Part shown: one piece after another, positions 324-22,491 of the stretch | Layout: each line of letters opens with the position of its first letter | How positions within the stretch are numbered: the first letter of the stretch is position 1 | Virus record (IMG/VR): IMGVR_UViG_3300046511_000532 | Location: 1-27,248 of that record | Length of the DNA: 27,248 nt | DNA from: a virus | Direction: 5' to 3' (one strand) | Program-made: the position numbers and the translations under genes | Notes under the pieces: generated by a model | Seen by the model: the letters and a program-made list of their open reading frames with translations, nothing else | Database searches by the model: none | Told to the model about the DNA's origin: nothing

Positions 324-504
324 ATCCATGCAGCTCTACCAGATCGGCGATCGCGTCTACGTCCCGCTCAGCGGCATCACCGCCGGCTCTGGCACCGTCC
401 AGGATCTCTGGCCCCGCGGCTTGCTCTTGATCAAATTCGACTCGGACGGCGTCGTCGCTCCCTACCAGCCCGACGACGTCCGCCCATTGCCGAGGCCCGA
501 GTGA
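310..504 (+). CDS. small hypothetical protein (64 aa), possible SH3-like fold
   Basis: ATG at 310 overlaps the end of the preceding gene, and its stop overlaps the GTG of the next gene in a GTGA arrangement, so it appears translationally coupled on both sides. An alternative ATG lies at 328. The protein is short and rich in beta-prone residues: IGDRVYVPLSGITAGSGTVQ, then a hydrophobic strand LLLIKFD and a final PYQPDDVRPLP. The pattern G-D-x-V-x-V-P followed by G-x-G-T-V is common in small SH3/KOW-like barrels that bind nucleic acid or protein, but no specific family is recognised. Its place inside the methyltransferase block is the only functional hint. Confidence 0.6.
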   Translation: MHHPESMQLYQIGDRVYVPLSGITAGSGTVQDLWPRGLLLIKFDSDGVVAPYQPDDVRPLPRPE

Positions 505-2067: not shown

Positions 2068-3327
2068 ATGCCGGTCACCATCACGTTGCCGCGGCCACTG
2101 CACTGGCAGCACGACGTGATGCAGGCCAACGCCCGTTTCTCCGTCCTGGCCTGCGGCCGGCGCTCCGGTAAATCTACCCTGGGCCAGCACCAGTTGATCC
2201 TCACCGCGCTGTCAGGTCGCCCAGCCGGCTACTTTGCCCCCAGCTACAAGCTGCTCGGCGAGTTCTGGCGCGAGCTGCGTACCCTGATCGAACCCGTCAC
2301 CCGTAACAAGAGCGAGCAGGACCACCGACTCGAGCTCGTCACCGGCGGCGTGCTCGAGCTCTGGTCACTCGACGATCCCAACCCTGCCCGCGGTCGCAAG
2401 TACCAGCGCGTGGTCGTCGACGAGGCCGCGATGGTGCCCAACCTCCTCGACATCTGGCAGCTTGCCATCCGCCCAACCCTGGCCGACTACGCCGGCGATG
2501 CCTGGTTCCTGTCCACGCCCCGCGGCCTGAACGATTTTCACCAGCTCTACCAGTTGGGCCAGGATCCGCTGGAAGGGGCCTGGCGATCGTGGCAGATGCC
2601 CACCAGCGTCAACCCGTACATCCACCCAGACGAGATCGAAGCGGCACGCCACGAGCTGCCTGAGCGCGCGTACGCCCAGGAGTACCTGGCGCAGTTCGTC
2701 CAACTCGAGGGCGCTGGCGTGTTCCGCGGCGTGCAGGGCGTCTCACGTCTCAAGCAGATGCCACCCCAGCGTGGCCACACGTACGTGTTCGGCGTGGACT
2801 GGGCACGCTCTAACGACTTCACCGTCATCAGCGTCATCGACGCCACCCTCAACGAGCAGGTCGCGCTGGACCGGTTCAGCAACATCGACTTTGAATTCCA
2901 GGCCGAGCGGTTGCACAGGTGGGCCGAGCTCTACCACCCCGTGCAGATCGTGGCCGAGGCCAACAGCATGGGCGGCCCCCTGGTCGAACGGCTGCAGACC
3001 GGCTATGCCAGACTGCTGGGCTCTGCCCGCGCGGCACTGCCGATCTATGCCTGGACGGCCACCAACGCTTCGAAGGACGCCGCGGTCAGGAGCCTGGCAT
3101 TGGCGATCGAGCAGAACCAGATCAGCCTGCTGGACGACCCCGTGCAGATCTCGGAGCTCCTGGCCTTTGAGAGCAGTGTGACCGTGACGGGCATGGTCAG
3201 GTATGCGGCGCCCACTGGCCTTCACGACGACTGCGTAATTGGCCTTTGCCTCGCTTGGCTGGGGTCGCAGTTGGCCACGGCCGAACGGCCACGCTCGAGC
3301 TATCGATTCGCAGCCGGCCGGCGGTGA
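2068..3327 (+). CDS. terL: terminase large subunit (ATPase/nuclease)
   Basis: 419 aa. The N-terminal ATPase has a Walker A motif CGRRSGKST at residues 29-37 and a Walker B strand RVVVDEAAM with D118-E119. An STPRG element follows, typical of the coupling motif after Walker B. The C-terminal half has the RNase H-like nuclease signature: D244 in FGVDWARSNDF, an acidic residue E297 in VAEANSMGG, and D387-D388 in GLHDDCVIG. The enzyme translocates DNA into the prohead through the portal and cuts the concatemer. The ATG lies three bases after the small terminase stop. All expected catalytic residues are visible, so it is probably functional. It is a useful marker for placing the phage phylogenetically. 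Confidence 0.96.
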   Translation: MPVTITLPRPLHWQHDVMQANARFSVLACGRRSGKSTLGQHQLILTALSGRPAGYFAPSYKLLGEFWRELRTLIEPVTRNKSEQDHRLELVTGGVLELWSLDDPNPARGRKYQRVVVDEAAMVPNLLDIWQLAIRPTLADYAGDAWFLSTPRGLNDFHQLYQLGQDPLEGAWRSWQMPTSVNPYIHPDEIEAARHELPERAYAQEYLAQFVQLEGAGVFRGVQGVSRLKQMPPQRGHTYVFGVDWARSNDFTVISVIDATLNEQVALDRFSNIDFEFQAERLHRWAELYHPVQIVAEANSMGGPLVERLQTGYARLLGSARAALPIYAWTATNASKDAAVRSLALAIEQNQISLLDDPVQISELLAFESSVTVTGMVRYAAPTGLHDDCVIGLCLAWLGSQLATAERPRSSYRFAAGRR

Positions 3328-4095: not shown

Positions 4096-6069
4096 GTGGC
4101 CATCGACCGCTCGAAGAAGGAGCTCAAGCCGCCGGATAGCTCCTATCTGACGTCGCTCCAGACCGAGCTCAGCGACCTGTACCTGCAGCAGGACAACGAC
4201 CTCGACCTGGTCCGCGAACAGCGCGAGATGCGCCGCCCTGCCCTGTCAGAAGCCGACAAGGACTACATGCTCGTCCACGTCGACCCCCGCGACCCTGACA
4301 TCACCGAAGAGGCGTTTCAGCAGACCGCAATACTCACGCTCGAGCGCCCCAAGTTATCCATCGTCGGCGGCGAAGGTGACACGGCCCAGACCGTCGCCAG
4401 CAAGCTCGAGCATTTCACGGAAGAGACGTTATGGGAATGTGGGACGAGGGAGCCCGGCTCGGACACCATGACCCAGGTCACCGACGCCACCCTGAACGAT
4501 GGCGGCGGCTGGGCCAAGCTGCTCTGGTCGTCCGATCTGTGGTCAGAACGCTACGGCATCGCCTCACCCAAGTCGGGTGACCCGACCGACGCGTACACGT
4601 CCTACGACAAGATGACCGAAGAGGCCAAGAAGCGCGCCGGCCCCCCCTTCGTCTGGCAGTACGTCGACCCTCGCCGGGTGTACCCCCAGTGGTCCAACGG
4701 CTACCTGTGCGAGGTGCTCGAGGTCTCAGAAATGCCGATGCGTAGCGCATTCCGGCGCTACCGGCTGTCGCGCGACGCCATCGGCGACATCGTGCCCGAG
4801 GAGCTCGGCCAGTCGCAGAACATCATCGAAGCCAGCCGCAACATGCTCAGCACGGTGACGTACCTCGAGCACTGGGACGACACCTGGGTGTCATACGCCA
4901 TTTGCGGCCAGAACTTCAACGGCGACCAGACCGGCTACATCGTCAAGCAGTTCAAGCACAAATACTCGTTCGGCGTGCCCTACGACTACGCGCCAGGACT
5001 GACCATGAACCACTGGCGCAATCGCAAGGTCGGCTGGGGGATTGGCAGGACGAAGTTGTGGCTCGTGCAGTACCGGCAGTACCTGCGGGCCATGCACGCG
5101 CAGTACGTCGCCAGGGACCTCCTTTCCCCCCTGGTGACGTACGGCGACACGCCGGCGGCCGCGGTCATTGGCGACGATGGTCTGCCCAAGGAAACCGACC
5201 CCACGGTCCACCCCGGCGAGATCCTGAACCTGCCGCCCGGCCGCCAACTTCAGAGGATCCAGTACCCCGACGCCAGCACCCTGGAGAAACACATGGCGCT
5301 CATAGACGGCGCCATCCGCGACCTGGAGTCTCCCAGGGTCACCACGCTGTCAGGCATGGAAGGCGCTGGCTTCGCCATCAGCCAGGTGCTGAGCTACTCG
5401 AGGACGCGGGTCGGTCCCATCCGCCACGGCATCGAATCCCTCCTCAAGGGGCAGACCGAGAAGCTGTGGACGCTGATCCGCGAACGCGCCAACGAGAAGG
5501 TGTACGTCTTTTCGGGCGGCATCGACGTCGGCTCTGGCAAGGCGGCCGCGGAGTTCATTGGCTTCGGTCCCAAGGACCTCGAGCGCCCGATGCGGATCAA
5601 GTGGGAGGTCCAGGCCCAACTCCCGACCGACGAGATGATCATGGCGCGGTACGCCCACGAGCGACTCGCCGCGGGCACGTTCGGCAAGGATGAGGCCGTC
5701 ACGTATCTGGGCGACAACCCCGACGAGATCCGCCGCAGTATCGCGCGCGACCGCATCCGCGCCTCACCCGCCTATCAGAAATGGCTGGACGCCGAGGTGT
5801 TCATGGAAGCGGGCCGCGGCGACCTGTTGCAGAAAGCGCAGGACGCCGAGCAGCTCGCGCTCAGTGGTCAGGTCAACGCACAACCAGGCCTGCCGGCTGG
5901 TGGTGGTCCGCCCGGTCAGCAACCCCAGCCCGGCGTGTTCGAGGGTGGTGGTCCGGGCATGGGCGGCGTGCCAGATCTTGGCGCGCTGGCCGCGGCGCCC
6001 AATGGTGCGGGCGCTAACCCACCAGGGTACCCGCAGGTGATGCAGGGCGCGCAGCAAGCGGGTCAGTGA
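4096..6069 (+). CDS. portal protein
   Basis: 657 aa, GTG start. The identification rests on position directly downstream of the terminase/HNH block, on size, and on a sequence resembling large phage portals: an early acidic helical segment (SDLYLQQDNDLDLVREQREM), a mid region FVWQYVDPRRVYPQW at about 185-199, and a long helical C-terminal half containing RVTTLSGMEGAGFAISQVLS. Twelve copies form the ring through which DNA enters and leaves the capsid and to which the tail attaches. From about residue 596 the protein turns into a Gly/Pro/Gln-rich tail without predicted fold. The next gene starts inside the stop codon. No clear ribosome site precedes the GTG, but the next in-frame alternatives would remove conserved-looking sequence. 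Confidence 0.85.
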   Translation: MAIDRSKKELKPPDSSYLTSLQTELSDLYLQQDNDLDLVREQREMRRPALSEADKDYMLVHVDPRDPDITEEAFQQTAILTLERPKLSIVGGEGDTAQTVASKLEHFTEETLWECGTREPGSDTMTQVTDATLNDGGGWAKLLWSSDLWSERYGIASPKSGDPTDAYTSYDKMTEEAKKRAGPPFVWQYVDPRRVYPQWSNGYLCEVLEVSEMPMRSAFRRYRLSRDAIGDIVPEELGQSQNIIEASRNMLSTVTYLEHWDDTWVSYAICGQNFNGDQTGYIVKQFKHKYSFGVPYDYAPGLTMNHWRNRKVGWGIGRTKLWLVQYRQYLRAMHAQYVARDLLSPLVTYGDTPAAAVIGDDGLPKETDPTVHPGEILNLPPGRQLQRIQYPDASTLEKHMALIDGAIRDLESPRVTTLSGMEGAGFAISQVLSYSRTRVGPIRHGIESLLKGQTEKLWTLIRERANEKVYVFSGGIDVGSGKAAAEFIGFGPKDLERPMRIKWEVQAQLPTDEMIMARYAHERLAAGTFGKDEAVTYLGDNPDEIRRSIARDRIRASPAYQKWLDAEVFMEAGRGDLLQKAQDAEQLALSGQVNAQPGLPAGGGPPGQQPQPGVFEGGGPGMGGVPDLGALAAAPNGAGANPPGYPQVMQGAQQAGQ

Positions 6070-6575: not shown

Positions 6576-9500
6576 ATGCCGGGGACCATCCTCCTCGACG
6601 ACCTGCGCTCGAGCATCGGCGACGAGCTGCGCTCCCACGCTCAGGGATTGCTCCAATTGGGCCAGGGCGCCGTTCAGAGCATCAACGACGCCATCCCCAC
6701 GCCACCGCCGGTACCCCAGGGTCCTGACCCGAATCAGATCCTGCAGGAGCTCCAGCAGCACGCCCAGCAAGCCGCCGCTGCCGCACAACCCGCCCTGCAG
6801 GTGCTGGGTACCGCCGGCCAGGCCGCCAGTGGCGCGGTGACGCAGCTCGGCCAGGCACGCGACCAGGTCGCACAACAACTGCAGGATCACGTCGCCAGCA
6901 TCACCCAGGGCGCGCAGAACGCCGTGCAGACGCTTGGTAGTCCTGCACCGCCAACCCAGGCGCCTGTCCAGCAACCAACCGCGGATCTCGGTGCGCCGCC
7001 GGACCGGTCGATGTCGCTGCAGGACTACGCTCGAGCCGCGGCCCAGCGAGCAGGCATCGACCCCAACGTGTTCACCGCGCAGATCCAGCAGGAGTCAGGG
7101 TTCAACCCCTCGGCGCGGAGCAATGCCGGCGCGATTGGCGTCGCCCAGTTCATGCCCGAGACGGCGAAGGGTGTCGGGCTCGATCCGACCGATCCGTATG
7201 CGTCACTCGACGCGGCGGCCAAAGAGGACGCGAAGCGACTGCAGCAGTATCAGGGTGACTGGGGCAAGACCCTGGCGTCCTACAACGCGGGTGCTGGCGC
7301 GGTCGAGACGTACGGTGGCATCCCGCCGTATGCGGAGACGCAGAACTACGTCAAGACCATCATGGGCAATGCCCAGCAGGCGGCGCAGGCAGCGGGTACC
7401 ACGATCAGCAACGCCGTGGGCGGCGCCGCGTCGGCACTGGGCGGCGCGGCTCGAGGTGCGCTCGACACGGCGTCGACCGCGATGAATCAGTCGCAGTTCA
7501 ACGATCCGCAGTTGACCGCGGACGAAGCGTACGCCGCGTGCGGTCCCGCGGCCGCCGTCAGGTTCGCCGAACGGTTTGGCCGCAACCCCACGCTCAGGGA
7601 AGCCACCGACCTGGCCAAGCAGGTGGGCTGGACGAGTGGCGGCGGCATGGCGGGCATCACCAGCGAGCAGCGACTGCTCAAGAACATGGGCGTCGACACG
7701 CACATCGTGGCGCCCGATTGGGATGCCATCTCCAGAGAAGCCCAGACGGGCAACCCCGTCACCATCTCCACGGCCGGCCATTACTTCTTTGCGGACGGCT
7801 ACAACCCGCAGACGGGCGCGTTCCACGTGGGACGTTCCGGTCTGGACCTGAAAAACGGCAGCGAGTGGATGACGCCGACCCAGATGGAAAATCTGATGGG
7901 CCGCGCGCAGGGCGCATTGTTCGCCGACAACCCCGCGGTGCCTGCCTCGAGCACGTCTCCCACCGCACTCGGCGGCACTGGTGGCGCATCCAACGCGCCG
8001 ATCACCATTGGTGGCCCGGCGCCCGTGAAGGCGCCGCTGTACGTCAAGGGTGCCATGCAGGACGCCGACGGCAACGTGGTCGCTGACCAGGGCCCAACCC
8101 CGATTCAGTCGGCGGCGGACGTGCTGGGTGGTGCCGCGGGCGCCGTCGGCGAGGCGGTTGGTGGTGCGGCATCGGCACTGGGCTCGGCCGCGCAGGGTGC
8201 GCTGGCTCAGGCCACCGCGCCTGTGCAGCTCCAGCCCGGTCAGGTGTCGGCGCGCGATCAGGTCAACCAGGTGGCGAGTGACGTGCAGCAGGCCGCGCAG
8301 GGCGTGCTGGGAGCGGCACAGGACGCCAACCGTCAGACCCCTGGCACAGCGGCCGTCAATGCGGTAGCGCCCGTTCTGGGGGCTGCTGCAAGCGACCTGG
8401 GCACCACGGCTCGAGGTGTCGTCGACGCTGCCGCGCCAGTGCTCGGTGGAGCGCTTCAGGATGAGAACGCCCAGGCGCTCGCCTTCGCACAGTCGCCCAT
8501 CGGGCATCGTCTCTTACAGGCCGCCGCGGAGAATGCCCAGGAGGGGCCGTCGCTGATCCCCGCGGGCACGATGAGCCTGTACCGCGACGTGATGCAGGTC
8601 AAAAACGATTGGCTCGAGCAGAACAACCCGCTCAACAATCTGCCCGGCGCGCGGCCAGAGCCAGGGCACGAGGGCGATATCACGCCAGGCGGGTTGATCG
8701 CGGGCCTGACCACGGGCATCGCACAGCAGTTCACCGACCCGTTGATGCTGGCGTTGCTGGGACCGACAAGTGGTGTGGCTGAAGCGGGCACGGGTGCGCT
8801 CAGTGGCGCGGTGAGCCGGATCGTCGGACCGCAACTGGCCGAACGTCTGTCGCCCGGTGCGGTCAACGTGCTCGGCACCATCGCGCAGAAGTTCTCGCAG
8901 GGCGCCATCGTGGGCGGTTTGCAGAACGCCATGTTCGAGGCGGAAAAGAAAACGTCCACGCCCGAGTCGGTGGGCCAGGCGCTGGTCGTCGGGGCTGGAC
9001 TGGGTGGCGTGATCGACGTGGGCTCGGTACCGGTGATGGCGGTGGTGCGGCGTATCGGCCAGGTGCTGCTCGATCGCGCACCCGAGATCAGCGCGGCATT
9101 GCGCTCAAGGCAACCTGCCCAGGCCAACGTCAATGCCGCGCTTGCCGGTGTGCCCGAGATGGTGGCGCGCGCGAGGGGTGAAGGTGAGCCGACGGCCGGG
9201 TTTACCGCGCCAGAGGCTGAGCCGAGCACGCGGATGTATCACGGCACGGGCTCAGGGTTCGATCGGCCGACGGGTGAAAGATTCGATCCGAACGGGCTGT
9301 ACGGACCGGGTTACTACCTGACCAGTGACCCGAGGGTGGCCGGTGGCGTCGTCGCTCAGGGCAATGAGATGCGTGCGCCGAATCTGCTCCGACTACTACC
9401 AAATAGTCCGGGCGCTGCGGCGGCTGCCGAACTGCGTGAGCCTGGTCAGGTACTCAGTCCGGGGTATGCCCAGGAACGTGCCCCACGGCCAACGGTTCTC

Positions 9501-12500
9501 GGCCAGCAACTGGACATGTACCGGAGTCGTCTGGCCCCGGCGCAGGAGTTGTTGCGAAACGCTCGTACGCCCGAGGAGCGCACGTACTTTCAGAACTACG
9601 TCGACAAGCTCCAGGGCTTGATCGACGACACCGAGAGCAAGGTGACGCCGCCAGAGGCCGGACCCAACGTGCGCGCGGTGGACGTGCCGCAAAACCTGAA
9701 CCTGCTGAACGTCGACGCCCCCGTGTCGGTCGAGAACGCACGCCGAATTTCAGACGCCATCCCTGATGCGGAGGACCGGCGGCGGTTCGATATTCGGGTG
9801 TTCCCGAATGACGAGCGCACGAGCACGAACGGGCAGACGGGTGATGCGGTCTATCAGGTGCTCACTCGGGCGTATGTCAGTCCTGATGTGTCGCTCAGTG
9901 AAGCCAAGACCCAAGCAGCGCAGGTGCTGAAGCAATCTGGGTACGACGGCATCACCTACAACGGTGGCCAGCGCATTCCGATGAACGACGCGGCGGGTGC
10001 GCCCATCGAGCACCAGGCGACCGTCATCTTCCCGGAATCGCTCGACAAGGTCCGTAACGCGGTCAGTGGGCGGCAGGGCGGCCAGGCGCAGGTGCCGTTC
10101 GGCATCAACCTTGCGGGCGGTGTCGCTGGCGGCTACGCCGGTAATGTCGCTACCCCCCAGGACGCGTCACCCGAAGAGCGCCTCAGAAACATCGGGCTCG
10201 GAGCAACCGCGGGGTTGCTCGGCACGCATCTGATCACCCGCGGCGGCGTCGGACCCAGCCTGGAACGCGCCGTCGCGGGTGTCGGGCGTGAAGGCTTCCG
10301 TGCGCCAGAGACGCGCCCGACACTCGAGGAGCAACTCGCGCGGGCAGCAGATAGAGGTCCACGCCCCGGCGAGAACCTGCTGAGGGCCACCACCGAAGAG
10401 CGGTCGCCGTCGACCGATGTGACGTCGCAGATGCAGCGCAATTTTCTCCGCGACACGGTCCGCGCACCTAACGCTGACCCGCGGCCGAAGGTGCAGGACA
10501 TTGGCCTGCCGAACGAGAAGCTCGTTCACCAGAACGACCTGACCGACGTGGTCCCGGCCGGCACCACCGTGCTCTACCACGAGACGAGTGTGCCGAACGC
10601 GCGCGCATTGCTCGATCGCATCGAAAGTGGTCCGCGCAACCAGACCCCGATCTTTACATCAGACAACCGCGACCTGGCGCTCGGGCAGGGTGGCAAGGGC
10701 GTCATGCTCGAGTTTGATCCTGCTCGGGCCAATGGCAGCGTCGCGCCTCAGAAGCCGGGCCTCACGTTCACCGCGGCGACGGGCAGCGGTCAGGAATACA
10801 CGGTCAGCAGGACGCTTCCAGGTGCTGTTTCGGCGATCGTGGTGCGTACCGAGCGGCAGGCTGCGCAGCTCGCGACCAACGCACGCGTGGCGCGCAGGTT
10901 TGACTTTGCCAATGCGGAGCCGACGGCAGATGGCGGCATACGCATCCCGCGCCGCGAAACGGGTACCGCACTGCCCGCCGCAGCGGCAGTGGTCACGCCG
11001 CGAGTCGCGCCTGAACCGACAGGGTTTCGTGCTCCCGAGACGGGTGCCACCAGCGAGGCGCCTATGACCGCTGCGTCAGAGGCGTTTGCCGGCGCACGAG
11101 CAGCGCCGGGGGAAGCCGTGACCGCGACAACTCCGACTGCGCGGGTGACGGCGTCCTTAGGTGAGCCGCCAGTGCCGCCTCAACCACCCGAGCGGCCTCC
11201 TGCTCCGCCAGCCGGGCCGCCTCCGCCTCCACCTACGGCGCCACCTACGGCGCCAACTGGCGCTACTCCTGAGCTCGACAAGCTCAACGCGATGTACGAC
11301 GGCAAGAAGCCGAAGCCAGCGACCAGTATTCCTGACGTTATCCAGCAAGTCGGCGACAGCCTGACACGCATGTTCACCGACCGCCAGGTCGACATCAACC
11401 GTGCCCAGGAGCGCTACGCGGCAAACCTCGGCCGTCCGTTGCGTGGCGACGAGATGGCCGCGGAGCTGCAGCGTCTGGCCTCCGATCCCGTGGCGCAGGT
11501 CAGAGTCGATGAAGGACTGAAGCCAGCCATTCAGTCCGTCGGCGCGGACTACCCCGCCCTGCGCAACTACGTGACGCTACGCTCGAATATCGAGGTCGCC
11601 GACAACCTTGCCACGCGCACCGGCAAGCCGGAGGTGGGCACCGATCGTCTGTTTTCAGGCGGCTTGAACCGTGAAGAGTCGGTCAAGGCGATGCAGGACC
11701 TCGAGCAGCAGCTCGGCCCGGAACGCTTTGCCAGGGTCCAGGCCGCGGCCGACCAAGTGACGGCGTTCAACCAGTCGATGCGCGAGCGATTGGTTCGGGC
11801 GGGCGTGCTCGACGAGGGCACCGCGGCCCAGCTCGAGGCGCAGTATCCGAACTGGGCGAAGACGCGCATTCTGGACTACATGGCCGACCCAGCCGGTGGC
11901 CAGGGTGCCGGTACCAAGCTCGGGCTCAGCGATCGCCAGTTGCGCGAATACACACTCAAGGGCACCGAACGTGCGCGCGAAGACCCGATCGCCTCGACGG
12001 TCGCGTACGCGCACCAGGTCGAACGCATGGCGATGAAAAACGAGGCGTTCCAGGCGTTTCTCAAGATCGACCAGGACAGTGCCAGCCCGATGCTGCGTGA
12101 AGTGCCGCAGAGCTACACGGCGAAGTCGAACGAGACGACGATGATCGGGTTCGTCGACGGGCAGAAGCAGAAGTATGTGACCGACAACAAGGCACTCGGC
12201 GCGGCGATCAATGGGGCGAGTGTGCTGTCGACGCCTGAGTGGACCAGCGCCTGGCAGAAGATATTTCGTTCGCTGGCGACCAGTCGTAACCCGCTGTTCC
12301 TGGCTGGCAACGCGGCGCTCGACGTCCCGACGTACGTGCTGCGCTCGAGCGTGCGGGAGGGTGGCCCGCTGGCGTTGCCGCGGATTCTGGGAGAACTGGC
12401 CAGGGGCTATGGCGACGCGTTCCAGGGCCTGTTCCAGGGTGAGTTCCGCGGTGAGGGTACGTCTGCCTTTCTGAAGGGCGGCGGCGGCCAGTCGGGGTAC

Positions 12501-13913
12501 TTCACCGGCGGCGAGGGGCAGACCAAACGTGCTGTCGCGGAGATGCAGCGCAAGAACGTGTTTCAGATCAACGGATGGCAGGATCTGGGGCGATTGACCA
12601 AAGACCTGCTCACGTTGCATCCCGTCGAGGCGTTGGGCGAGCGGATAGAACTCGGCCCGCGCGTGGCGGCGATGCGACTCGCCGAGCGACGTGGCGCCAA
12701 CGCGACGCAAGCGGTCATCGACGGACGCACCGTCACCGTCGATTTTTCTCAAGGCGGGACCGTCACCAAGTACCTCAACAACTTCATCCCGTTCTTCAAT
12801 GTTGGGTTCCAGGGTCCAGCCCAGATCGCTCGAGCGTTCCGAGACAATCCGCGAGCGTTCGTCGCGACGGTCGGCACGCTGATCGGCATTCCGTCGATGG
12901 CCGCCGAGGTGTGGAACAAGAGCGACCCGCAGCGGGCGAAGGACTACGCCGACGTGCCGCAGTACGTGAAAGATCAGGGCATCGTCGTCATGCTGCCGGG
13001 CGAGGCACCCGTCGACGCGCAGGGCAACCGCAAGCCGATGTACGCCGTCATCAAACTCCGCGAGTGGATGCCGTTCGCCAGTCTCGCACGCGAGGCGACC
13101 GGCCGCGTGATGGGTGACGACTCGCGGTCCTGGCAGGAGATGGCGTCGTCCATCGGGTCGGGGCTGTCACCCATCCAGGCGCAGAGCGCCGCCCAGGTCG
13201 GTACAGAGCCGCTCGGTGGTATCCCGATCCTGCCTGCCGCGGCGCAGCTCGAGATGAACACCGACTTCTTCCGTGGCCGCACGATCGTGACGCAGCGCGC
13301 CGATCAGAACGCAAGCGCGGTGTCGAAGGCCATCACGCCGGCGATACAGGCGATCGTCGATCGCGCGGGGATCAATGCCGAGGTGCGACCGTCGGCGATT
13401 GATTTCCTGGTACGGAATCAGGGCGCAGGCGTGGGCGGCGCCGCGCTGAGCGCCAGCGACCTGGCCGCGGGCCAGCCGTCAGACACGGCGGGGCCGACAG
13501 GCTTGCCAGGCGTTGGTGGGCTGATCGGGCGATTTGCGGGCAACCAGACCGGTAACGAGTTACAGCAGGCCCGCGACCAGACGCTCACCACCGAGGGTCG
13601 CCAGACGCTGCGCAACAACGGCATCACGCTGACCCCAGGAGCCGTGTCGGGCAGCGTCAATCAGATACCGCTCAATATCGAGGAGGAAACGCGCTACCAG
13701 CAACTGACCAACCGCTACATCGACGCGGCGATTGCGCGCACGGCAGCGTCGCCTGACTTCGCGCGTATGACGCAGGTCGGCAAGCAGAGCCTGATGGATC
13801 AGGCGATGCAGGCCGCTCGCTCGAGGGCAGGCATCGAAGTCTTGAACACGATTCCCGCTGATGAGAAGCGGCGGCGTCTCAGTACGAAGTCGACCGCGCC
13901 TGCAGCCGCTTGA
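6576..13913 (+). CDS. giant polyvalent ejection protein: lytic transglycosylase, cysteine-peptidase-like, two ADP-ribosyltransferase-like and LPD38-like regions
   Basis: 2445 aa. Residues 1-145 are Ala/Gln-rich. Residues 146-262 form an SLT lytic transglycosylase: catalytic E173 in QQESGFNPSA, AIGVAQFMP, and ASYNAGAGAV. Residues about 305-440 resemble a C39-type cysteine peptidase, with C322 in AACGPAAAV and H402 in GHYFFADGY; the third catalytic residue is unclear. Ala/Gly-rich linkers and amphipathic segments follow (about 440-860). Residues 887-1160 look like an ART-PolyVal ADP-ribosyltransferase: MYHGTGSGF, LYGPGYYLTSDP and a distal GYDGITYNGG with VIFPES. Residues about 1325-1445 resemble a second one: VLYHETSVPNARALL, PIFTSDNRDLALGQGGKGV. 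After a Pro-rich linker (about 1530-1565), residues 1568-2185 resemble LPD38, with NPLFLAGNAALDVPTYVLR and KYLNNFIPFFNVGFQGPAQI. It is probably packaged in the virion and ejected. The SLT call is firm; the others are motif-level. Confidence 0.88.
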   Translation: MPGTILLDDLRSSIGDELRSHAQGLLQLGQGAVQSINDAIPTPPPVPQGPDPNQILQELQQHAQQAAAAAQPALQVLGTAGQAASGAVTQLGQARDQVAQQLQDHVASITQGAQNAVQTLGSPAPPTQAPVQQPTADLGAPPDRSMSLQDYARAAAQRAGIDPNVFTAQIQQESGFNPSARSNAGAIGVAQFMPETAKGVGLDPTDPYASLDAAAKEDAKRLQQYQGDWGKTLASYNAGAGAVETYGGIPPYAETQNYVKTIMGNAQQAAQAAGTTISNAVGGAASALGGAARGALDTASTAMNQSQFNDPQLTADEAYAACGPAAAVRFAERFGRNPTLREATDLAKQVGWTSGGGMAGITSEQRLLKNMGVDTHIVAPDWDAISREAQTGNPVTISTAGHYFFADGYNPQTGAFHVGRSGLDLKNGSEWMTPTQMENLMGRAQGALFADNPAVPASSTSPTALGGTGGASNAPITIGGPAPVKAPLYVKGAMQDADGNVVADQGPTPIQSAADVLGGAAGAVGEAVGGAASALGSAAQGALAQATAPVQLQPGQVSARDQVNQVASDVQQAAQGVLGAAQDANRQTPGTAAVNAVAPVLGAAASDLGTTARGVVDAAAPVLGGALQDENAQALAFAQSPIGHRLLQAAAENAQEGPSLIPAGTMSLYRDVMQVKNDWLEQNNPLNNLPGARPEPGHEGDITPGGLIAGLTTGIAQQFTDPLMLALLGPTSGVAEAGTGALSGAVSRIVGPQLAERLSPGAVNVLGTIAQKFSQGAIVGGLQNAMFEAEKKTSTPESVGQALVVGAGLGGVIDVGSVPVMAVVRRIGQVLLDRAPEISAALRSRQPAQANVNAALAGVPEMVARARGEGEPTAGFTAPEAEPSTRMYHGTGSGFDRPTGERFDPNGLYGPGYYLTSDPRVAGGVVAQGNEMRAPNLLRLLPNSPGAAAAAELREPGQVLSPGYAQERAPRPTVLGQQLDMYRSRLAPAQELLRNARTPEERTYFQNYVDKLQGLIDDTESKVTPPEAGPNVRAVDVPQNLNLLNVDAPVSVENARRISDAIPDAEDRRRFDIRVFPNDERTSTNGQTGDAVYQVLTRAYVSPDVSLSEAKTQAAQVLKQSGYDGITYNGGQRIPMNDAAGAPIEHQATVIFPESLDKVRNAVSGRQGGQAQVPFGINLAGGVAGGYAGNVATPQDASPEERLRNIGLGATAGLLGTHLITRGGVGPSLERAVAGVGREGFRAPETRPTLEEQLARAADRGPRPGENLLRATTEERSPSTDVTSQMQRNFLRDTVRAPNADPRPKVQDIGLPNEKLVHQNDLTDVVPAGTTVLYHETSVPNARALLDRIESGPRNQTPIFTSDNRDLALGQGGKGVMLEFDPARANGSVAPQKPGLTFTAATGSGQEYTVSRTLPGAVSAIVVRTERQAAQLATNARVARRFDFANAEPTADGGIRIPRRETGTALPAAAAVVTPRVAPEPTGFRAPETGATSEAPMTAASEAFAGARAAPGEAVTATTPTARVTASLGEPPVPPQPPERPPAPPAGPPPPPPTAPPTAPTGATPELDKLNAMYDGKKPKPATSIPDVIQQVGDSLTRMFTDRQVDINRAQERYAANLGRPLRGDEMAAELQRLASDPVAQVRVDEGLKPAIQSVGADYPALRNYVTLRSNIEVADNLATRTGKPEVGTDRLFSGGLNREESVKAMQDLEQQLGPERFARVQAAADQVTAFNQSMRERLVRAGVLDEGTAAQLEAQYPNWAKTRILDYMADPAGGQGAGTKLGLSDRQLREYTLKGTERAREDPIASTVAYAHQVERMAMKNEAFQAFLKIDQDSASPMLREVPQSYTAKSNETTMIGFVDGQKQKYVTDNKALGAAINGASVLSTPEWTSAWQKIFRSLATSRNPLFLAGNAALDVPTYVLRSSVREGGPLALPRILGELARGYGDAFQGLFQGEFRGEGTSAFLKGGGGQSGYFTGGEGQTKRAVAEMQRKNVFQINGWQDLGRLTKDLLTLHPVEALGERIELGPRVAAMRLAERRGANATQAVIDGRTVTVDFSQGGTVTKYLNNFIPFFNVGFQGPAQIARAFRDNPRAFVATVGTLIGIPSMAAEVWNKSDPQRAKDYADVPQYVKDQGIVVMLPGEAPVDAQGNRKPMYAVIKLREWMPFASLAREATGRVMGDDSRSWQEMASSIGSGLSPIQAQSAAQVGTEPLGGIPILPAAAQLEMNTDFFRGRTIVTQRADQNASAVSKAITPAIQAIVDRAGINAEVRPSAIDFLVRNQGAGVGGAALSASDLAAGQPSDTAGPTGLPGVGGLIGRFAGNQTGNELQQARDQTLTTEGRQTLRNNGITLTPGAVSGSVNQIPLNIEEETRYQQLTNRYIDAAIARTAASPDFARMTQVGKQSLMDQAMQAARSRAGIEVLNTIPADEKRRRLSTKSTAPAAA

Positions 13914-14061
13914 TGCCCCAGTTGATCACACCCAGTAACGCGGCGAGTCCGAAGCCAACGCCGGCAATGATCGCGCCCACGGGCGGAAAGAAGAAGGTGA
14001 CCATGAGCCATGCGAGGACCAGGGCGACCGCCGCCTTCTCAAAGTTAGAATCGAGTTGCAT
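13879..14061 (-). CDS. small two-helix membrane protein, antisense to the virion genes (holin candidate)
   Basis: 60 aa from the ATG at 14061; a GTG at 14064 is also in frame. On the minus strand AAAGGG precedes the ATG by nine bases, a good ribosome site. The product has a short polar N-terminus (MQLDSNFEKA), a hydrophobic stretch AAVALVLAWLMVTFFF, a PPVG turn, a second stretch AIIAGVGFGLAALLGVINWG, and a basic tail IKRLQARSTSY. That layout fits a small inner-membrane protein; class II holins are similar, but nothing proves a lysis role. It is the only credible minus-strand gene here, fills a gap otherwise without genes, and overlaps the last 35 nt of the giant gene antisense. The plus-strand ORF across this gap is of random composition. 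Confidence 0.6.
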   Translation of the reverse strand: MQLDSNFEKAAVALVLAWLMVTFFFPPVGAIIAGVGFGLAALLGVINWGIKRLQARSTSY

Positions 14062-14088
14062 CACGGAGTGCCCTTTCGTGGTGTCTGG

Positions 14089-14115
14089 CCCGCGGTCGTT
14101 TGCTCGACGCGCGGG
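14089..14115 (+). terminator. terminator-like hairpin downstream of the giant gene
   Basis: CCCGCG at 14089-14094 plus GTCG at 14095-14098 pair with CGAC at 14105-14108 and CGCGGG at 14110-14115, with one bulged G and a six-base loop TTTGCT. CTTTCTC follows on the plus strand. The stem is strong but the U-run is imperfect. It could end transcription from 6576-13913 before the next gene, or sit in the leader of the minus-strand membrane gene. Confidence 0.45.
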
Positions 14116-14160
14116 CTTTCTCAGTCTTGGGGCGCACTATACGGCGGCGTGTGGTAACTG

Positions 14161-16041
14161 ATGGCGAATTACAAGACGGAAGCCGAAGCACTGGCTGGTG
14201 CGGGCGTCCCAGGCTGGAGCGTGACTGGTCGTGAGCAGGAATACGAAAACATCACGACCAAGGACGAGAACAACCAGAACGTCACGACCAAGCGCCCTAC
14301 CGGCAACACCATCCTGACCGTGCAGTCGCCGGACGGCTCGCAGCACGACTCGATCACTGTCGGGTCCGGGGATGACGCGACGGTCAAAGGCGGCAAGGTC
14401 ATTACGGTCGTCAAGGGTGCCCAGCAGAGCCATCCCGTGGCGGCGACGTCCACCCCGGCCAGCGGGCTCGAGCGGCTGGACGAGAATCTGAACGTCATCC
14501 CGCCTGGCTCGAGCACGCCGACGGTCTACGTCCGCGACCCCAAGGCGCCGCCAGGCACCCAGCCGTTCAAGGTCGATCCGAACGTCAAGACCGACCCGTC
14601 GACGTGGACGCCGATCACCGACCCGAACGATAAGAGCGACAACCCGCGCGTCATCGGTCTGTGGGACCCGGCCAATAACAAGGTGGGCGCCAGCGTCTCT
14701 GCCCAGGCCGGTGCGAAAACCTCGGACCCTGGCAAGTGGACGCCGGTGTACCGCACGCCAGGCGATAGCGGCAGCGGCGTGGTCGGCCAGTGGGACCCGG
14801 TCAACAGCGAGCTGCACGCGGTGTCGAGTGCCCCCGATGGGACGCAGATCGTCGCCACGCCGACGGCGATCTACACGCTCGACAAGGCCACCGGCAAGGT
14901 CATCAACACCCAGGAGGTCGCCCAGGGCGACGTCAACAAGCAGGCCGTCTCGAGCGGCGGCAAGATCTACGTGTTCGATCCGAAGACGGGCACGCTGACA
15001 CTGCCAGACAACGTGCAGGCCGCGGCGACGGTGGGCAACAGCACCACCCTCAAAGACCTGGTCTGGTACGACGACCAGGGCAACGAGGTCAGCCGCACGC
15101 CCAACCCGAATTATGGGAAAGCGCCGGTCACCGCGCCCACGCCGAACACGGTTGCACCCTATATCCAGGTTCCCGATCCACAGAATCCGTCGCAACTGAT
15201 CTGGATCGAGAACAAGGGTCAGGTGACCGCGAGCGCCGCGCTGCAACAGTTGGCGGCGCATCTGACTGGCCAGGTGGTGGACAAGAAGATCAGCGTCGAT
15301 GAGGCCAAGACGCTGATCGACGCGGCCAACCAGCGCATGACGGCCGACACGGCCCAGACCAACGCGGAGACGGCCCAGCAGCAGAACGTCACGACCGCCG
15401 CGGGCGACATCCTGAGCAACACGCGCGGCAACGCCCAGACGGGCGCTGGCCTGTTGCAGCAGCGAGCTCAGACGGCCAGCGGGATGCTGCAGAACATCCT
15501 GGGCCAGGCGACCGGCGCCAAGAACCTGATGTCGGCGCCGGCCGGGCTCGGCGAGCAGCTCGTGGGTGGCATCGGGGGCTGGACGGCGGACATGATGGGC
15601 GGCCAGAGCACGCTCGATTCGGCGGCGCGCATGGTGCAGATGGCCGATCCGTCGAGCAACATGGCCGATCCCGCCACCCAGACCGCGGTGGGCGTGCTGC
15701 AGCAGATGCTGGACAAGTACCACCAGGTGACGGGCTCACCGCACCCCGCGGTTGCGGCGACCAACGCCGCGCAGCAAAGCGCACAGAATGGTGGTCTGAC
15801 GGCGCCGGTCACGACGACCACGCAGCAGACGCAGCCGGCACCGCCGGTGCAGCAGCGGACGACCTACGGAGGTCTGGCGCAGGGAGGCGCGAACATGGGT
15901 GGGATGAACCTGTACCCAACGCCAGGCTCGCCAGGGATGCCGATCAGTGGTCTGGCACAGGGCGGGTTGCAGGGCATGCCAGGATTTGTCGCTCCAGGTG
16001 CGCCCGTCAAGCCACCGCCAATCACGGTCACGGTGGGCTAG
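14161..16041 (+). CDS. putative internal virion protein (626 aa) with beta-repeat N-terminal half
   Basis: The ATG at 14161 follows a gap with no strong ribosome site. The N-terminal half is beta-rich and contains a tandem repeat with a 44-residue period: DPSTWTPI...VIGLWDPANNKVGA from residue 145 and DPGKWTPV...VVGQWDPVNSELHA from residue 189. A propeller-like strand follows (IYTLDKATGKVINTQE, KIYVFDPKTGTLTLP). The second half is helical, Ala/Gln-rich (about 360-540), and the C-terminus is Gly/Pro-rich with two GLAQGG motifs. No family is recognised. Size, composition and place after the giant protein suggest a second internal or ejected protein, as in the core of short-tailed phages; this is inference. 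The next gene starts three bases after the stop. Confidence 0.75.
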   Translation: MANYKTEAEALAGAGVPGWSVTGREQEYENITTKDENNQNVTTKRPTGNTILTVQSPDGSQHDSITVGSGDDATVKGGKVITVVKGAQQSHPVAATSTPASGLERLDENLNVIPPGSSTPTVYVRDPKAPPGTQPFKVDPNVKTDPSTWTPITDPNDKSDNPRVIGLWDPANNKVGASVSAQAGAKTSDPGKWTPVYRTPGDSGSGVVGQWDPVNSELHAVSSAPDGTQIVATPTAIYTLDKATGKVINTQEVAQGDVNKQAVSSGGKIYVFDPKTGTLTLPDNVQAAATVGNSTTLKDLVWYDDQGNEVSRTPNPNYGKAPVTAPTPNTVAPYIQVPDPQNPSQLIWIENKGQVTASAALQQLAAHLTGQVVDKKISVDEAKTLIDAANQRMTADTAQTNAETAQQQNVTTAAGDILSNTRGNAQTGAGLLQQRAQTASGMLQNILGQATGAKNLMSAPAGLGEQLVGGIGGWTADMMGGQSTLDSAARMVQMADPSSNMADPATQTAVGVLQQMLDKYHQVTGSPHPAVAATNAAQQSAQNGGLTAPVTTTTQQTQPAPPVQQRTTYGGLAQGGANMGGMNLYPTPGSPGMPISGLAQGGLQGMPGFVAPGAPVKPPPITVTVG

Positions 16042-16044
16042 GTC

Positions 16045-17310
16045 ATGCCAACGTATACGCTCCCAGATCCGTCAGGCAGTGGGTTCATCAATGCGTCCGG
16101 CAACACGCTGCAGGAAGCCGAGCAGACGGCTGCCACCGCGCGCGGCATGGCGTCGTGGACGGGCGGCAGCTACGGTGCCGACAGTTCGCCGACCGGGACG
16201 CAACAGGCCGGCAGCGGCGGCGGTGCAGGCGGCGGTACGCCCGGCGGCGTCGCACAGACGGTAACCCAGCAGTCGGGCCAGCAACTGGCCGCGGGCATCA
16301 ACAGTTTGCTCGGCGCCATCGCGTCGGGCAACAAGCAAGCGTTCGACGAGCAGGTCCGCGAGTTCGACGCCACGTTCGGTCTGAATAAGGACCAGTTCAA
16401 CCAGAACGTCAGCGAGTACAACCAGAACCTGGCGGTCACCCAGGCGGGTCTGACAGGCCAGTACAACGGCCAGCAAACCCAGCAGGCGCAGCTTCAGGCG
16501 TACAACGAGGCGATCGGCGCCGCTGGCCTGACGGGCTACTACCAGGCGCCTGGCACGGCCGGCGGTGCGGGTGGAGGTCTGACGCAGGCCCAGTACATCA
16601 CCGCGCGCAGTCAGCAACTGGCAGGCATGGGCTGGGCGCCCGCGGCCGCCGCTCAGACCGCGTTGTCCGAGTGGAACCAGGGCCTAGCCCAATCGGGCAA
16701 TGTTGCAGGCGGCATGCCAGCCGGTCTGATCCCGGCGTCCGCCGGCGCAGCACCGGGTGCGGCCGGCACGCCGACATTGGCGGCACAGTTGCAGTGGGCC
16801 AATCTGTACGGCCAGAACGCCGCGCCGACGGCCGGCCAGACCACGCTGGCGGCGCAGCAGCAGGCGTACGCGCAGCAGATGGGCGCAGTGAGTGCGGCGG
16901 CCGCGATGCAGGCCAATCCGTTCAGACAGGCCCAGGTGATCGGTCAGGCAGGCCGCATCCTGCAGGGCATGCCCACCGCGGGTTTTTCAGCACCGAATAC
17001 CGTGGCGGGCGTGGGCACGGCCGGCGGCAACACCCAGGGCGGCATGGGGTACCTCCAACAACTGATTTCAGATATTCAGAGTCCTAGTGCCAACCAGACG
17101 ACGGCGGATTCGTTTTTGAACCAGACGCCGACGCCGAATCAGATCGACTCGCCGAGCTTCCTGCGATCGACGCCCACCACGCAAAACCTGATTCTTCAGG
17201 CTATGCAGGAGCGCTACGGAATTGATCCAACGGATTCGCTGAAGCAGATCCAGAACACGCTCCCGCAATTCTCGGCGCCTAACACCGCGGGCACGATCCG
17301 GAGGGGGTGA
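16045..17310 (+). CDS. putative internal virion protein, Gln/Ala/Gly-rich (421 aa)
   Basis: It begins MPTYTLPDPSGSGFINASGN, a beta-hairpin-like start followed by a helical segment QEAEQTAATARG. After a Gly-rich linker the body is dominated by Gln and Ala (QQLAAGINSLLGAIASGNKQ; FGLNKDQFNQNVSEYNQNL), consistent with long amphipathic helices. There are no cysteines, signal peptide or enzymatic motifs. The C-terminus has Asn/Gln/Pro-rich spacers and ends with RRG. It sits between the 626-aa protein and the capsid operon. The role is unknown; an ejection or core component is the best guess from composition and position. GGAGGGGG near its stop serves as ribosome site for the next small gene. Confidence 0.75.
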   Translation: MPTYTLPDPSGSGFINASGNTLQEAEQTAATARGMASWTGGSYGADSSPTGTQQAGSGGGAGGGTPGGVAQTVTQQSGQQLAAGINSLLGAIASGNKQAFDEQVREFDATFGLNKDQFNQNVSEYNQNLAVTQAGLTGQYNGQQTQQAQLQAYNEAIGAAGLTGYYQAPGTAGGAGGGLTQAQYITARSQQLAGMGWAPAAAAQTALSEWNQGLAQSGNVAGGMPAGLIPASAGAAPGAAGTPTLAAQLQWANLYGQNAAPTAGQTTLAAQQQAYAQQMGAVSAAAAMQANPFRQAQVIGQAGRILQGMPTAGFSAPNTVAGVGTAGGNTQGGMGYLQQLISDIQSPSANQTTADSFLNQTPTPNQIDSPSFLRSTPTTQNLILQAMQERYGIDPTDSLKQIQNTLPQFSAPNTAGTIRRG

Positions 17311-17313
17311 GCG

Positions 17314-17448
17314 ATGCCACTCAAGAAGAGCGCCAGTAAAGCAGCCTTCAAGGCCAACGTCCGCGAGATGGTCAAGTCGGGTCGCCCCGTCAAGCAAGCG
17401 GTTGCAGCCGCGTATTCGACGCAGCGTGCGGCGAAGGGCAAGAAGTAA
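17314..17448 (+). CDS. small basic conserved phage protein (44 aa)
   Basis: The ATG at 17314 lies seven bases after a strong GGAGGGGG site. The product starts MPLKKSASKAAFKANVREMV and continues with SGRPVKQAVAAAYSTQR and a KGKK end. This matches a small family I recall in many phage structural modules (MPLKKG...K...I..N..EL...G.P.KQAVA...), whose function is unknown. It is strongly basic and probably a short helical hairpin that binds nucleic acid or an acidic partner. Its stop overlaps the ATG of the scaffold gene (TAATG), so the two are probably translated together. The recognisable sequence and strong ribosome site make it credible despite the length. Confidence 0.8.
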   Translation: MPLKKSASKAAFKANVREMVKSGRPVKQAVAAAYSTQRAAKGKK

Positions 17449-18335
17449 TGCCAGGCGATTGGGACAAGAACGTCCACCCCGACCTGGTCGATGACGAGGA
17501 GAGCTCGTCGTCCGAGACGTCGGCGCCCCGCCCTCGCGGTCGCGGGCGTGCCAACTCTGACGCGGCCCTCCCCGCGACGGCGGGCGAGGCAGTATCGGAA
17601 GAGCCTGTCACTGAGTCAGGTTCCGACGGCACTGCTGAGCCCGACCCGGCAACACCCGACCTCTCCTGGTTCGACCAGGTGCGGGACGCGAAAGATCCCG
17701 TCGAAGCCCTGCGGCTGATCACCAAGAATCTGCCGCGCGACCAGCTCGAAAAAGACGAGGTGATGTCTGGCGTCATCGGCGCGCGTGCCGAACGTCGGTT
17801 CAACGAGATCAAGGCTCAGCAAGAGCGCGCGGCGCAGGAGCGAGCCAAACTGGAAGCGGCCGCCAACAACGACCTGTACACCCTGGGCGAAATGACTCAG
17901 CGCGAGTTGCAAGGACAACTCGCGTCGCAGCAAGCCGCCCAGGCCGCCGGGCCGTTCATGGACGGCATCGTCCAGTTCCAGAAAACCCTGCCCGAAGCGA
18001 TCCAGAAGAAGATCGCCGGGAAAACCTTCGGGGCAGGCAAGGGCTACGCCGAGGGCGTGGCAGAATACGTGGCAGCCATCGTCGACGAGGCAGTGGAGCT
18101 CGGCGTCAGTAAACGCGAGTCCGCACTGAGGAAATCGGTGATGAGCGAGATAAACGGTGACGAGCCTGTCCCTGAGCGCGACTCTGGTACCCCCGGTCGC
18201 GTCCGAGAAGTGACAGACGAAATGATCGCCGCCATGACGTTACGCGAGTATGAGGCGCTGTTCGACGAGAACGGTAAGCCAAAGCCAGGGGTACGCCATC
18301 GGTCAACCCGAGGGATCCCCGTTCGTCAACATTAG
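17448..18335 (+). CDS. putative capsid scaffold protein (295 aa)
   Basis: It is immediately upstream of the capsid gene. Residues 1-75 are acidic and disordered (DLVDDEESSSSETS, EPVTESGSDGTAEPDP). Residues about 105-150 form a charged coiled coil (RAERRFNEIKAQQERAAQER). A helical middle follows, and the basic C-terminus PKPGVRHRSTRGIPVRQH would fit a capsid-binding tail. Acidic disordered start, coiled coil and basic end is the common layout of phage scaffolds, which guide coat assembly and are then removed. No protease domain is visible here or nearby, so removal may be by exit or by an enzyme outside the window. The stop is followed by AGGGGGT, the ribosome site for the capsid exon 1. Confidence 0.75.
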   Translation: MPGDWDKNVHPDLVDDEESSSSETSAPRPRGRGRANSDAALPATAGEAVSEEPVTESGSDGTAEPDPATPDLSWFDQVRDAKDPVEALRLITKNLPRDQLEKDEVMSGVIGARAERRFNEIKAQQERAAQERAKLEAAANNDLYTLGEMTQRELQGQLASQQAAQAAGPFMDGIVQFQKTLPEAIQKKIAGKTFGAGKGYAEGVAEYVAAIVDEAVELGVSKRESALRKSVMSEINGDEPVPERDSGTPGRVREVTDEMIAAMTLREYEALFDENGKPKPGVRHRSTRGIPVRQH

Positions 18336-18356
18336 GGGGTCATTCAAGACAACCAC

Positions 18357-19977
18357 ATGGCAACCGGTGCTTAGTACGGTATAGGCACCTAACGCAGCTC
18401 AAATGCGGGGAAGCCCTAAGAGCCTTCGAGCCTGATTAGGGAAGAGTGCGAAGGATGGAGCAATGGGTAATCCGCAGGCGAAAGTTTCAGATATCGAGTA
18501 CGGCTGGTTAGCCGGGTTCTTTGACGGTGAGGGTTCTGTGGTACTGACGATTCGTTCCAGCGCAGGCAAGAACGGTGGACCCAAGGTCCAGCCGATGGCG
18601 CTGCTCGCTGGGACAGATCAGGCAGCACTGGATGCCATCACGAGTATTCTCGATCGCGAGCAGATTGGGCATTGGGTGGGCTGGGGTATTCCGAAGGGAA
18701 CAGCCCGAAATGGAAACGCCTACAAACGTGCCTGGGCTGTTCGTCTCGTGGGACTCAAACGAACCCAACGTTTCGTCGAATGGATCTTGCCCGCGCTGCA
18801 GACAAAGCGCGAGCGGGCCGAGTTGGTGCTGCAGTACATCGCAGCGCGTTTGGCTCATAGCGACTTCCGCACGCCGATTCAGCCCGAAGAATGGGCGATG
18901 GCGATGCAGATGAAATTGCTCAACAGCAAGACCCAGCCGTTTACTCGAGAAGTCACCTTGAACACCGAACCAGCCGGGCTCACTACAGAAGAGGCTCGGG
19001 TGCGTGGCATGAAGGGCCACGCCGTTCGGTGGGGTTACTCTGATACTAGCCTCAACGACCCCACGCTGCGCTTGCCCATCTGAGTGGGCAATGAAGGTAG
19101 AGTCTGCTCTTACATAAAAGTGTAAGCTAACAACAGGACCGAATTCGTAGATAAAACCATTTCAGATGGCGTTTTCTCCCCCGACATCTGGAGTAAGCAG
19201 GTACTGCGGGCGACAGAGTCGAACTTGCTCTTCGCAAAGTCAGTAAACCGAGGATTCGAGAACGACGCCAGCGTGGGCAAGACCGTCAAGGTCGCGAGCA
19301 TTGGCAACCTCGCCGCTCGAGCCAAGACCGAAAACACCGCGATCGTGTACGAAACCGTTGCCGAGACGGCGACCACGATCACGCTGAACATCTGGTCGTA
19401 TGCCGCATTGGGAATTGAGGACATCGTGAAGGTGCAGAGCATCATCGATGTCCAATCCGAATACCAGCAGAAGCTGGGCTACGCCCTGGCCAAGGACGTC
19501 GACACCAACCTGGCCGTGGACGTCGCCGGGTTTACGCAGACCGTCGGCACCCTGGGCACGGCGCTGTCAGACGCCAACGTGCTGGCCGCGGTGCAGTTGC
19601 TGGATAACGCCGACGCGCCCCAGACCGAAAGATTTTTCCTGATGTCACCGGCTGAGAAGGTGGCCAAGCTGGCACTCGACCGGTGGAGCAATGCGTTGTA
19701 CATCGGCAACACCAACCTGCCGTCGAAGGACGGCCAGCTCGGCGACATGTACGGGCTGAACCTGGGCGTCACCACAAATTTAGTGAAGCCGGCTGGCGGC
19801 CAGGCCAACAATTTCATCGGTCATCGCGAAGCCATCGCGCTGGTGATGCAGCGCACGCCCAAGTCGCACATCTTTTATGACATCGATGTGTTCTCGTGGA
19901 AATTGGCCGTCGAAGAGATCTACGGCCACCAGATGATGCGGCCGACGTTTGGCGTGTGGGCCAAGGGAGTTTCGTAG
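18357..19977 (+). CDS. major capsid protein, split by a group I intron: join(18357..18371, 19138..19977)
   Basis: Exon 1 is only five codons (MATGA) behind an AGGGGGT ribosome site. Exon 2 resumes in phase with TEFVDKTISDGVFSPDIWSK. The spliced protein is 284 aa and its N-terminus matches a known coat-protein pattern: MATT..FV, then PEIWS..VLRA, NLVFA..VNR and IPSIGNLTARAKTENTAI. The exon 2 body shows VLRATESNLLFAKSVNRGFE, IGNLAARAKTENTAIVYET and IEDIVKVQSIIDVQSEYQQK. It forms the icosahedral shell, probably with an HK97-type fold. Without splicing, the first intron codon is an in-frame TAG (18372-18374) and a second in-frame stop (TAA, 19123) lies near the intron end. The first start-like codon in exon 2 is a TTG at 19225, which would lose 34 residues. 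Splicing is therefore needed for full-length protein. Confidence 0.88.
18372..19137 (+). ncRNA. group I intron (766 nt) in the major capsid gene
   Basis: Elements paired by eye: P1, exon GGTGCT 18366-18371 with GGCACC 18384-18389, giving the required U-G pair at the 5' splice site; P10, CGGT 18377-18380 with exon 2 ACCG 19138-19141; P3, CGCAGC 18393-18398 with GCTGCG 19065-19070; P4, TGCGGG 18404-18409 with TCCGCA 18471-18476; P5, GCCC 18413-18416 with GGGT 18465-18468, with an inserted arm (CCTTCG 18423-18428 / CGAAGG 18449-18454); P8, TTGCCCA 19072-19078 with TGGGCAA 19085-19091; P9, CTTACA 19109-19114 with TGTAAG 19121-19126. P7 is probably ACTCT 19037-19041 with AGAGT 19099-19103. The intron ends in G at 19137. 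The 3' part (GTAGAGTCTGCTCT then P9) resembles the phage T4 td intron, suggesting subgroup IA. P6 was not resolved. Confidence 0.88.
18463..19083 (+). CDS. LAGLIDADG homing endonuclease encoded in the intron (206 aa)
   Basis: The ATG at 18463 is preceded by AAGGATGGAG. Residues 16-24 are LAGFFDGEG in the context YGWLAGFFDGEGSV, the LAGLIDADG helix with its metal-binding acidic residue. Only one such motif is seen, so a homodimer is expected. The next part (WVGWGIPKGTARNGN, KRAWAVRLVGLKRTQRFVEW) fits the beta-sheet/helix layout of the family. The enzyme would cut intron-less capsid genes and drive spread of the intron; some members also help splicing. It lies between P4 and P7, and its ends are built from intron core sequence: P5/P4 strands encode residues 1-5, P7 and P3 strands lie in the last 16 codons, and the TGA stop sits in the P8 loop. 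Confidence 0.9.
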   Translation: MGNPQAKVSDIEYGWLAGFFDGEGSVVLTIRSSAGKNGGPKVQPMALLAGTDQAALDAITSILDREQIGHWVGWGIPKGTARNGNAYKRAWAVRLVGLKRTQRFVEWILPALQTKRERAELVLQYIAARLAHSDFRTPIQPEEWAMAMQMKLLNSKTQPFTREVTLNTEPAGLTTEEARVRGMKGHAVRWGYSDTSLNDPTLRLPI

Positions 19978-19980
19978 ACC

Positions 19981-20891: not shown

Positions 20892-20893
20892 CG

Positions 20894-21349: not shown

Positions 21350-21358
21350 GAGATGGTG

Positions 21359-22373: not shown

Positions 22374-22376
22374 GTG

Positions 22377-22487: not shown

Positions 22488-22491
22488 GCTG

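Follow-up and report, generated by a model that had tools for sequence, protein, structure and literature searches.

A putatively ejected polyvalent protein with exchangeable internal cassettes in a probable short-tailed phage

In a viral contig of 27,248 bases (the window, i.e., the whole stretch of DNA that was analyzed), one open reading frame at 6576..13913 (+ strand, ATG start) encodes a protein of 2445 residues. This locus raises the question of what kind of protein unites wall-degrading, peptidase-like and ADP-ribosyltransferase (ART)-like parts in one chain, and what it might do during infection. The first-pass annotation regarded it as a polyvalent ejection protein. All three kinds of parts fit this reading, yet only one of the two proposed ART domains turned out to be well supported and the LPD38 domain had been misplaced. 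With these corrections, we consider it probable that the protein is carried in the virion and ejected by a probable short-tailed phage, and that it consists of a conserved carrier with exchangeable cassettes.

Gene, neighbourhood and phage

The reading frame had been taken as one continuous gene, which was confirmed by its conservation in relatives, including a full-length counterpart in contig L001 that is 96% identical. Beyond L001, six further long versions were found in the contigs of relatives, the shortest relative having 1787 aa and the longest 3080 aa. The frame sits among virion and packaging genes, with the terminase large subunit (2068..3327, +; phrog_2, 5e-38; Terminase_6C) and a portal-like protein of 657 aa (4096..6069, +) encoded upstream and the major capsid protein (19225..19977, +; phrog_267, 6e-26; Phage_capsid_2) downstream. 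The portal assignment comes from a single relative, L027, whose homologue (23% identical) matches the portal family phrog_156 (E 3e-5). The earlier placement beside the portal agrees with this portal-like gene upstream, but a gene of 169 aa separates the two.

Upstream of the terminase gene, window positions 501-1700 encode a DNA methyltransferase (phrog_498, E 2.7e-98) to which a ParB-like region is fused at the N-terminus. An HNH-endonuclease-like ORF (phrog_5046, E 7.8e-12) is located at 18463-19083; the stretch of about 18336-19137 is missing from L004, L008 and L036 although the flanks align, and resembles a mobile endonuclease insertion. The same phage recurs in another sample, as positions 1-9560 of L033 are 100% identical to 14208-23767 of the window. 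Virus, relatives and host are represented by metagenome contigs only, and a genome scan for the host returned just three MAG contigs (Chloroflexi, Acidobacteria and Thermoleophilia). The phage is probably a short-tailed one (podovirus).

The wall-degrading end and the ART-like centre

The N-terminal part contains an SLT lytic transglycosylase domain (aa 151-253; 7026..7334, +). The catalytic motif proposed at residue 173 was borne out, with a match to PF01464 (E 2.6e-21, 75.8 bits against a cut-off of 21.3) and with Glu173 lying in ESGFNP. The domain occupies an exchange region for wall hydrolases, slot 1 (aa ~119-289; 6930..7442, +), which was delimited by Pfam and by a DNA comparison in which seven relatives lose identity from 6930 to 7410-7442. 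Elsewhere, this slot contains a glucosaminidase (L002, L005, L006, L012, L015 and L022) or, in L004, an M23 domain together with a glucosaminidase.

Directly behind slot 1 follows a C39/papain-like cysteine peptidase domain (aa 306-457; 7491..7946, +), recognized by its fold and by Cys322 and His402. Both residues, which had been singled out before, are invariant across 17 relatives (50-96% identical). The claimed fold was also recovered by structure prediction: the AlphaFold model (pLDDT 86) resembles ComA, PCAT1, phytochelatin synthase and PeiR (best Foldseek E 2.5e-4), and VIA places PeiR at the top (Z 12.7), with ComA at Z 12.2 (rmsd 2.8, 126 residues). However, the Pfam match to C39_2 (PF13529; 316-417, E 0.0036) is below the cut-off, and two canonical catalytic positions, which we take to be Gln at -6 and Asp about 16 after the His, are not conserved. 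In the 17-relative alignment, the oxyanion Gln is absent, the -6 position being D, S or E, and no Asp is present about 16 residues after the His. As both residues are unconserved, "C39/papain-like" is a safe name, "active C39 peptidase" is not. A search of PDB sequences with the C39 profile gave nothing relevant, and no counterpart of the region was found in named phages by tblastn. As a wall hydrolase adjoins the domain, it most likely acts on wall peptides, alongside the SLT domain.

The centre of the protein holds slot 2 (aa ~870-1160; 9184..10056, +), an effector cassette slot delimited by loss of DNA identity and filled here by the allele ART1a. The domain itself, ART1 (aa 885-1160; 9228..10055, +), bears H889, Y914 and D1124. 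In an alignment of 22 members from other viral contigs, the motifs YHGT and GPG.Y are invariant and GY[D/E]GI carries an acidic residue; H889 and Y914 are invariant, and wherever a row covers the third site it has D, apart from four ART1b rows with E. H-Y-D is the pattern given for polyvalent ARTs (ART-PolyVal / Tox-ART-HYD2), with H on strand 1, Y on strand 2 and D on strand 5 (PMC5512222). A reading as an R-S-E, Alt-type enzyme is ruled out by this motif.

The earlier claim of ART-like motifs around 887-1160 holds, but the window's sequence does not reach the Pfam cut-off for ART-PolyVal (PF18760; 12.8 bits against 31.2). Nineteen of the 22 relatives match this family weakly (best E 9.4e-5), all below the gathering score. 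A model of residues 878-1480, of moderate pLDDT and with the ART1 core mostly at 70-94, has as its top BFVD match a phage "ART-PolyVal-like domain-containing protein" (E 1.7e-5). Its top PDB match is a pre-ejectosome protein of cyanophage A-4L, over residues 1418-1600 of that protein (Foldseek E 4.8e-3; VIA Z 10.3, rmsd 3.4, 156 residues). The matched chain is ORF27 of Anabaena phage A-4L (PDB 9k3a chain B; L084, 20116-25269), and it reads SLYHGT...GSGTYF...GVDAL, i.e., it has the same residues as ART1 at the three H-Y-D positions. MbcT, a related NAD-handling toxin, matches the model at Z 7.3 over 128 residues, a value which the tool flags as possibly due to chance. The ART1 profile retrieved nothing relevant from PDB sequences, and no ART1 region was found in named phages by tblastn. 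ART1 is the only well-supported ART of the protein, an ART-PolyVal-type domain that may act by ADP-ribosylation. A-4L ORF27 is annotated only as "tail protein", and its part at about 1418-1600 looks like an ART (H1426, Y1448, D1580).

A near-invariant motif, NA.SG..GG, follows right after ART1 (aa ~1161-1170; nt ~10056-10085) in the window and in the A4 relatives. It bears on another possible role of the C39-like domain, namely that of a processing protease which would free the cassettes by cleaving the long chain, either while still in the head or once inside the host. ComA and PCAT1, among its nearest folds, are C39 peptidases cleaving at double glycines; the domain is nearly invariant while the adjoining wall hydrolase is swapped, and for the MPTases, zincin peptidases of other polyvalent proteins, a role in processing has been proposed in the literature (PMC5512222). 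Yet the domain adjoins a wall hydrolase, its top VIA match PeiR is a wall peptidase, the canonical Gln and Asp are missing, and the motif is also present in the protein of L058, where the C39-like domain was not detected. Processing is hence a tentative alternative that we do not favour, and the motif as a C39 cleavage site is speculation. Cleavage of wall peptides is still the preferred reading of the domain.

Slot 3 (aa ~1278-1494; 10408..11057, +) holds a second ART-like candidate, ART2 (aa 1326-1455; 10551..10940, +), with the motifs YHET, IFTS and QEYT. It is present in the window, L001, L003 and L052 (78%), whereas slot 3 contains another domain or a coil in L002, L006 and L008, and nothing in L004. 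A second ART had been proposed at 1325-1445. Its motif and the ART-like order of predicted strands speak for this, but ART2 alone matched no family in Pfam and PHROGs, hhalign found no relation to ART1, and the 878-1480 model gave no separate fold match for it, the VIA list being filled by a helical hairpin, which makes it a weak test of ART2. No ART2 region was found in named phages by tblastn. Residues 1326-1455 are therefore only plausible as an ART. A stretch resembling ART2 (30% match) also occurs at 2781-2904 of a 4459-aa polyvalent protein in L032 (1595-14974).

Cassette exchange among sister phages

In the sister phages, neighbouring genes are 75-99% identical, yet the same flanks hold different contents. 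The flanks common to the relatives share 83-97% DNA identity around different interiors, and the boundaries are abrupt and recurrent, those of slot 2 being at 9184 and 10056. Between them, DNA identity is sharply lost in L003, L005, L006, L008, L012 and L015. Slot 2 consists of ART1a in the window, L001 and L002, of ART1b in L003, of a GNAT-like domain (assigned by eye) plus ART1b in L005, of a DUF7178-like domain plus ART1b in L006 and of a DUF7178-like domain alone in L008, L012 and L015; in L022 it is empty. These contents are always found between the same middle block (aa 485-869; 8028..9182, +) and the same conserved glycine-rich connector (aa 1161-1277; 10056..10406, +). L004 represents a clean loss in which both slots 2 and 3 are gone together with the connector, and TAPEPST is joined to EAFAGARAAPGEAV.

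The cassettes of L006, L008, L012 and L015 were initially treated as unrelated; this was dropped, as L024 and L065 match both probes, which makes them one DUF7178-like group. The DUF7178-like domain is a recurrent alternative cargo of slot 2, occurring in L006, L008, L012, L015, L024, L047 and L065.

The C-terminal module (type A; aa 1502-2445; 11079..13910, +) is common to the window, L001, L003 and L004 (78% DNA identity), and types B and C occur elsewhere. By hhalign, A and B are not detectably related, B and C are related, and A and C share only the last ~90 aa. An LPD38-like block had been located at 1568-2185. LPD38 is indeed present (PF18857, E 3.6e-10, 40.7 bits against a cut-off of 27), but its true position is aa 2122-2301 (12939..13478, +), so that the claimed block lies mostly upstream of it; residues 1568-2121 form a conserved block in which no Pfam domain was found.

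All these sequences are metagenome contigs, and L003 has an ART1 different from that of the window although the DNA to either side of it is about 99% identical, as would also be seen if the mosaic were an assembly artefact. However, the junctions of ART1a recur in different samples (window, L001 and L002), which argues against assembly error, and so do those of ART1b (L003, L005, L006 and L057); L012 and L013 carry identical cargo, and the reading frames remain open across the junctions. An artefact is therefore very improbable.

Every module tested is under purifying selection (dN/dS 0.02-0.37). This matters for the idea that the protein is a tail-associated lysin only, in which the wall-degrading part works and the ART-like segments are mere passengers, either structural or degenerate. 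Virion proteins with an SLT domain are common, as seen from PHROG and phage matches, and L004 and L022 do without ART1. In contrast, ART1 retains H-Y-D/E and has dN/dS values of 0.10-0.37 in independent alleles, those of ART2 are 0.03-0.10, and the slots hold other enzyme-like domains such as GNAT, so that we regard a mere lysin as unlikely.

When mapped on a tree of the portal gene from 13 phages, the wall type requires five changes, the contents of slot 2 nine and the C-terminus three; as most inner branches are unresolved, these counts are indications. In L027 two separate ORFs, 7310-10441 (C39-like) and 10973-14875 (LPD38), make up the polyvalent chain, and in Bacillus phage Palmer a wall-degrading protein and an LPD38-matching giant are encoded by adjacent separate genes, both of which is consistent with modular fusion. 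We lean towards the view that recombination at conserved flanks swaps wall hydrolases and, at fixed internal slots, effectors (ART, GNAT-like, DUF7178-like or none). Polymorphic toxins would be a parallel, except that here the cassette would be internal and delivered by the virion. The "single delivered weapon" of the first-pass annotation has accordingly to be modified: its enzymes are exchangeable cassettes, with close relatives carrying other enzymes or none, and its delivery is suggested by precedents, i.e., JC1 gp69 in virions and A-4L ORF27 in the pre-ejectosome.

In such a scenario, the protein would be packaged near the portal and leave the head with the DNA at infection. The SLT and C39-like domains would open the peptidoglycan locally, while the LPD38-type C-terminal module might function in loading into the virion, in anchoring or in translocation. 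ART1, held at the centre of the chain, would reach the cytoplasm and ADP-ribosylate a host target, possibly before phage transcription. Recombination at the conserved flanks would replace wall hydrolase and effector as units, which could allow sister phages to adapt their equipment to another host or another defence. If this is true, nature has performed a domain-swap experiment in which near-identical phages differ in the injected enzyme, on a chassis with naturally varied cargo size and position (1787 to 3080 aa). Two questions would then be open to direct testing: the action of injected ARTs, and of the domains that replace them, during the first minutes of infection, and the passage of giant proteins with different cargo through the ejection channel.

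Relation to known systems

Polyvalent ejection proteins as a kind are already known, the phage type having been described in 2017 (Iyer et al., PMC5512222). Like these, the 2445-aa protein combines disparate domains in one chain beside virion genes; SLT, C39-like, ART1 and LPD38 domains are united, with SLT and LPD38 above the Pfam cut-offs, and lysozyme, ART, GNAT and LPD38 are common to the described proteins and the present family. In the Burkholderia podovirus JC1 (Bcep22-like), mass spectrometry detected gp69 as a virion protein through 51 unique peptides; gp69 likewise has an N-terminal LT-like domain and a C-terminal LPD38, but comprises 4515 aa and contains methylase and helicase domains instead of an ART (PMC9144972). 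ORF27 of A-4L, as part of a solved pre-ejectosome, shares the ART1-like fold with H-Y-D-like residues at 1418-1600; no C39-like or SLT match was found in it, and its sequence similarity to ART1 is not significant.

T7 gp16 is also a virion ejection protein with an N-terminal lytic transglycosylase. Its family, PHROG 342, matches the 2445-aa protein (E 4e-14) over aa 148-617 only; for the C-terminal body no relation was detected, and the effector cassettes set the present protein apart. With T4 Alt it shares the proposed role of an injected ART that modifies host proteins, but Alt is placed in the R-S-E type (PMC5512222), whereas ART1 is H-Y-D. MuF polymorphic toxins are phage-head-linked carriers of variable toxin domains including ARTs, yet their variable parts are C-terminal (PMC5576092) and those of the present protein internal; a MuF domain was not matched in it by Pfam.

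Compared with the survey of 2017, the C39/papain-like domain is outside the four peptidase superfamilies listed there (PMC5512222), and no zincin MPTase was found in the present protein. Recombination of cassettes was raised in that survey merely as a possibility, for kinase-bearing proteins and loci, whereas exchange of effectors at fixed internal slots is documented here among sister phages. What is new with respect to it is thus the C39/papain-like core together with direct evidence for exchanged internal effector slots.
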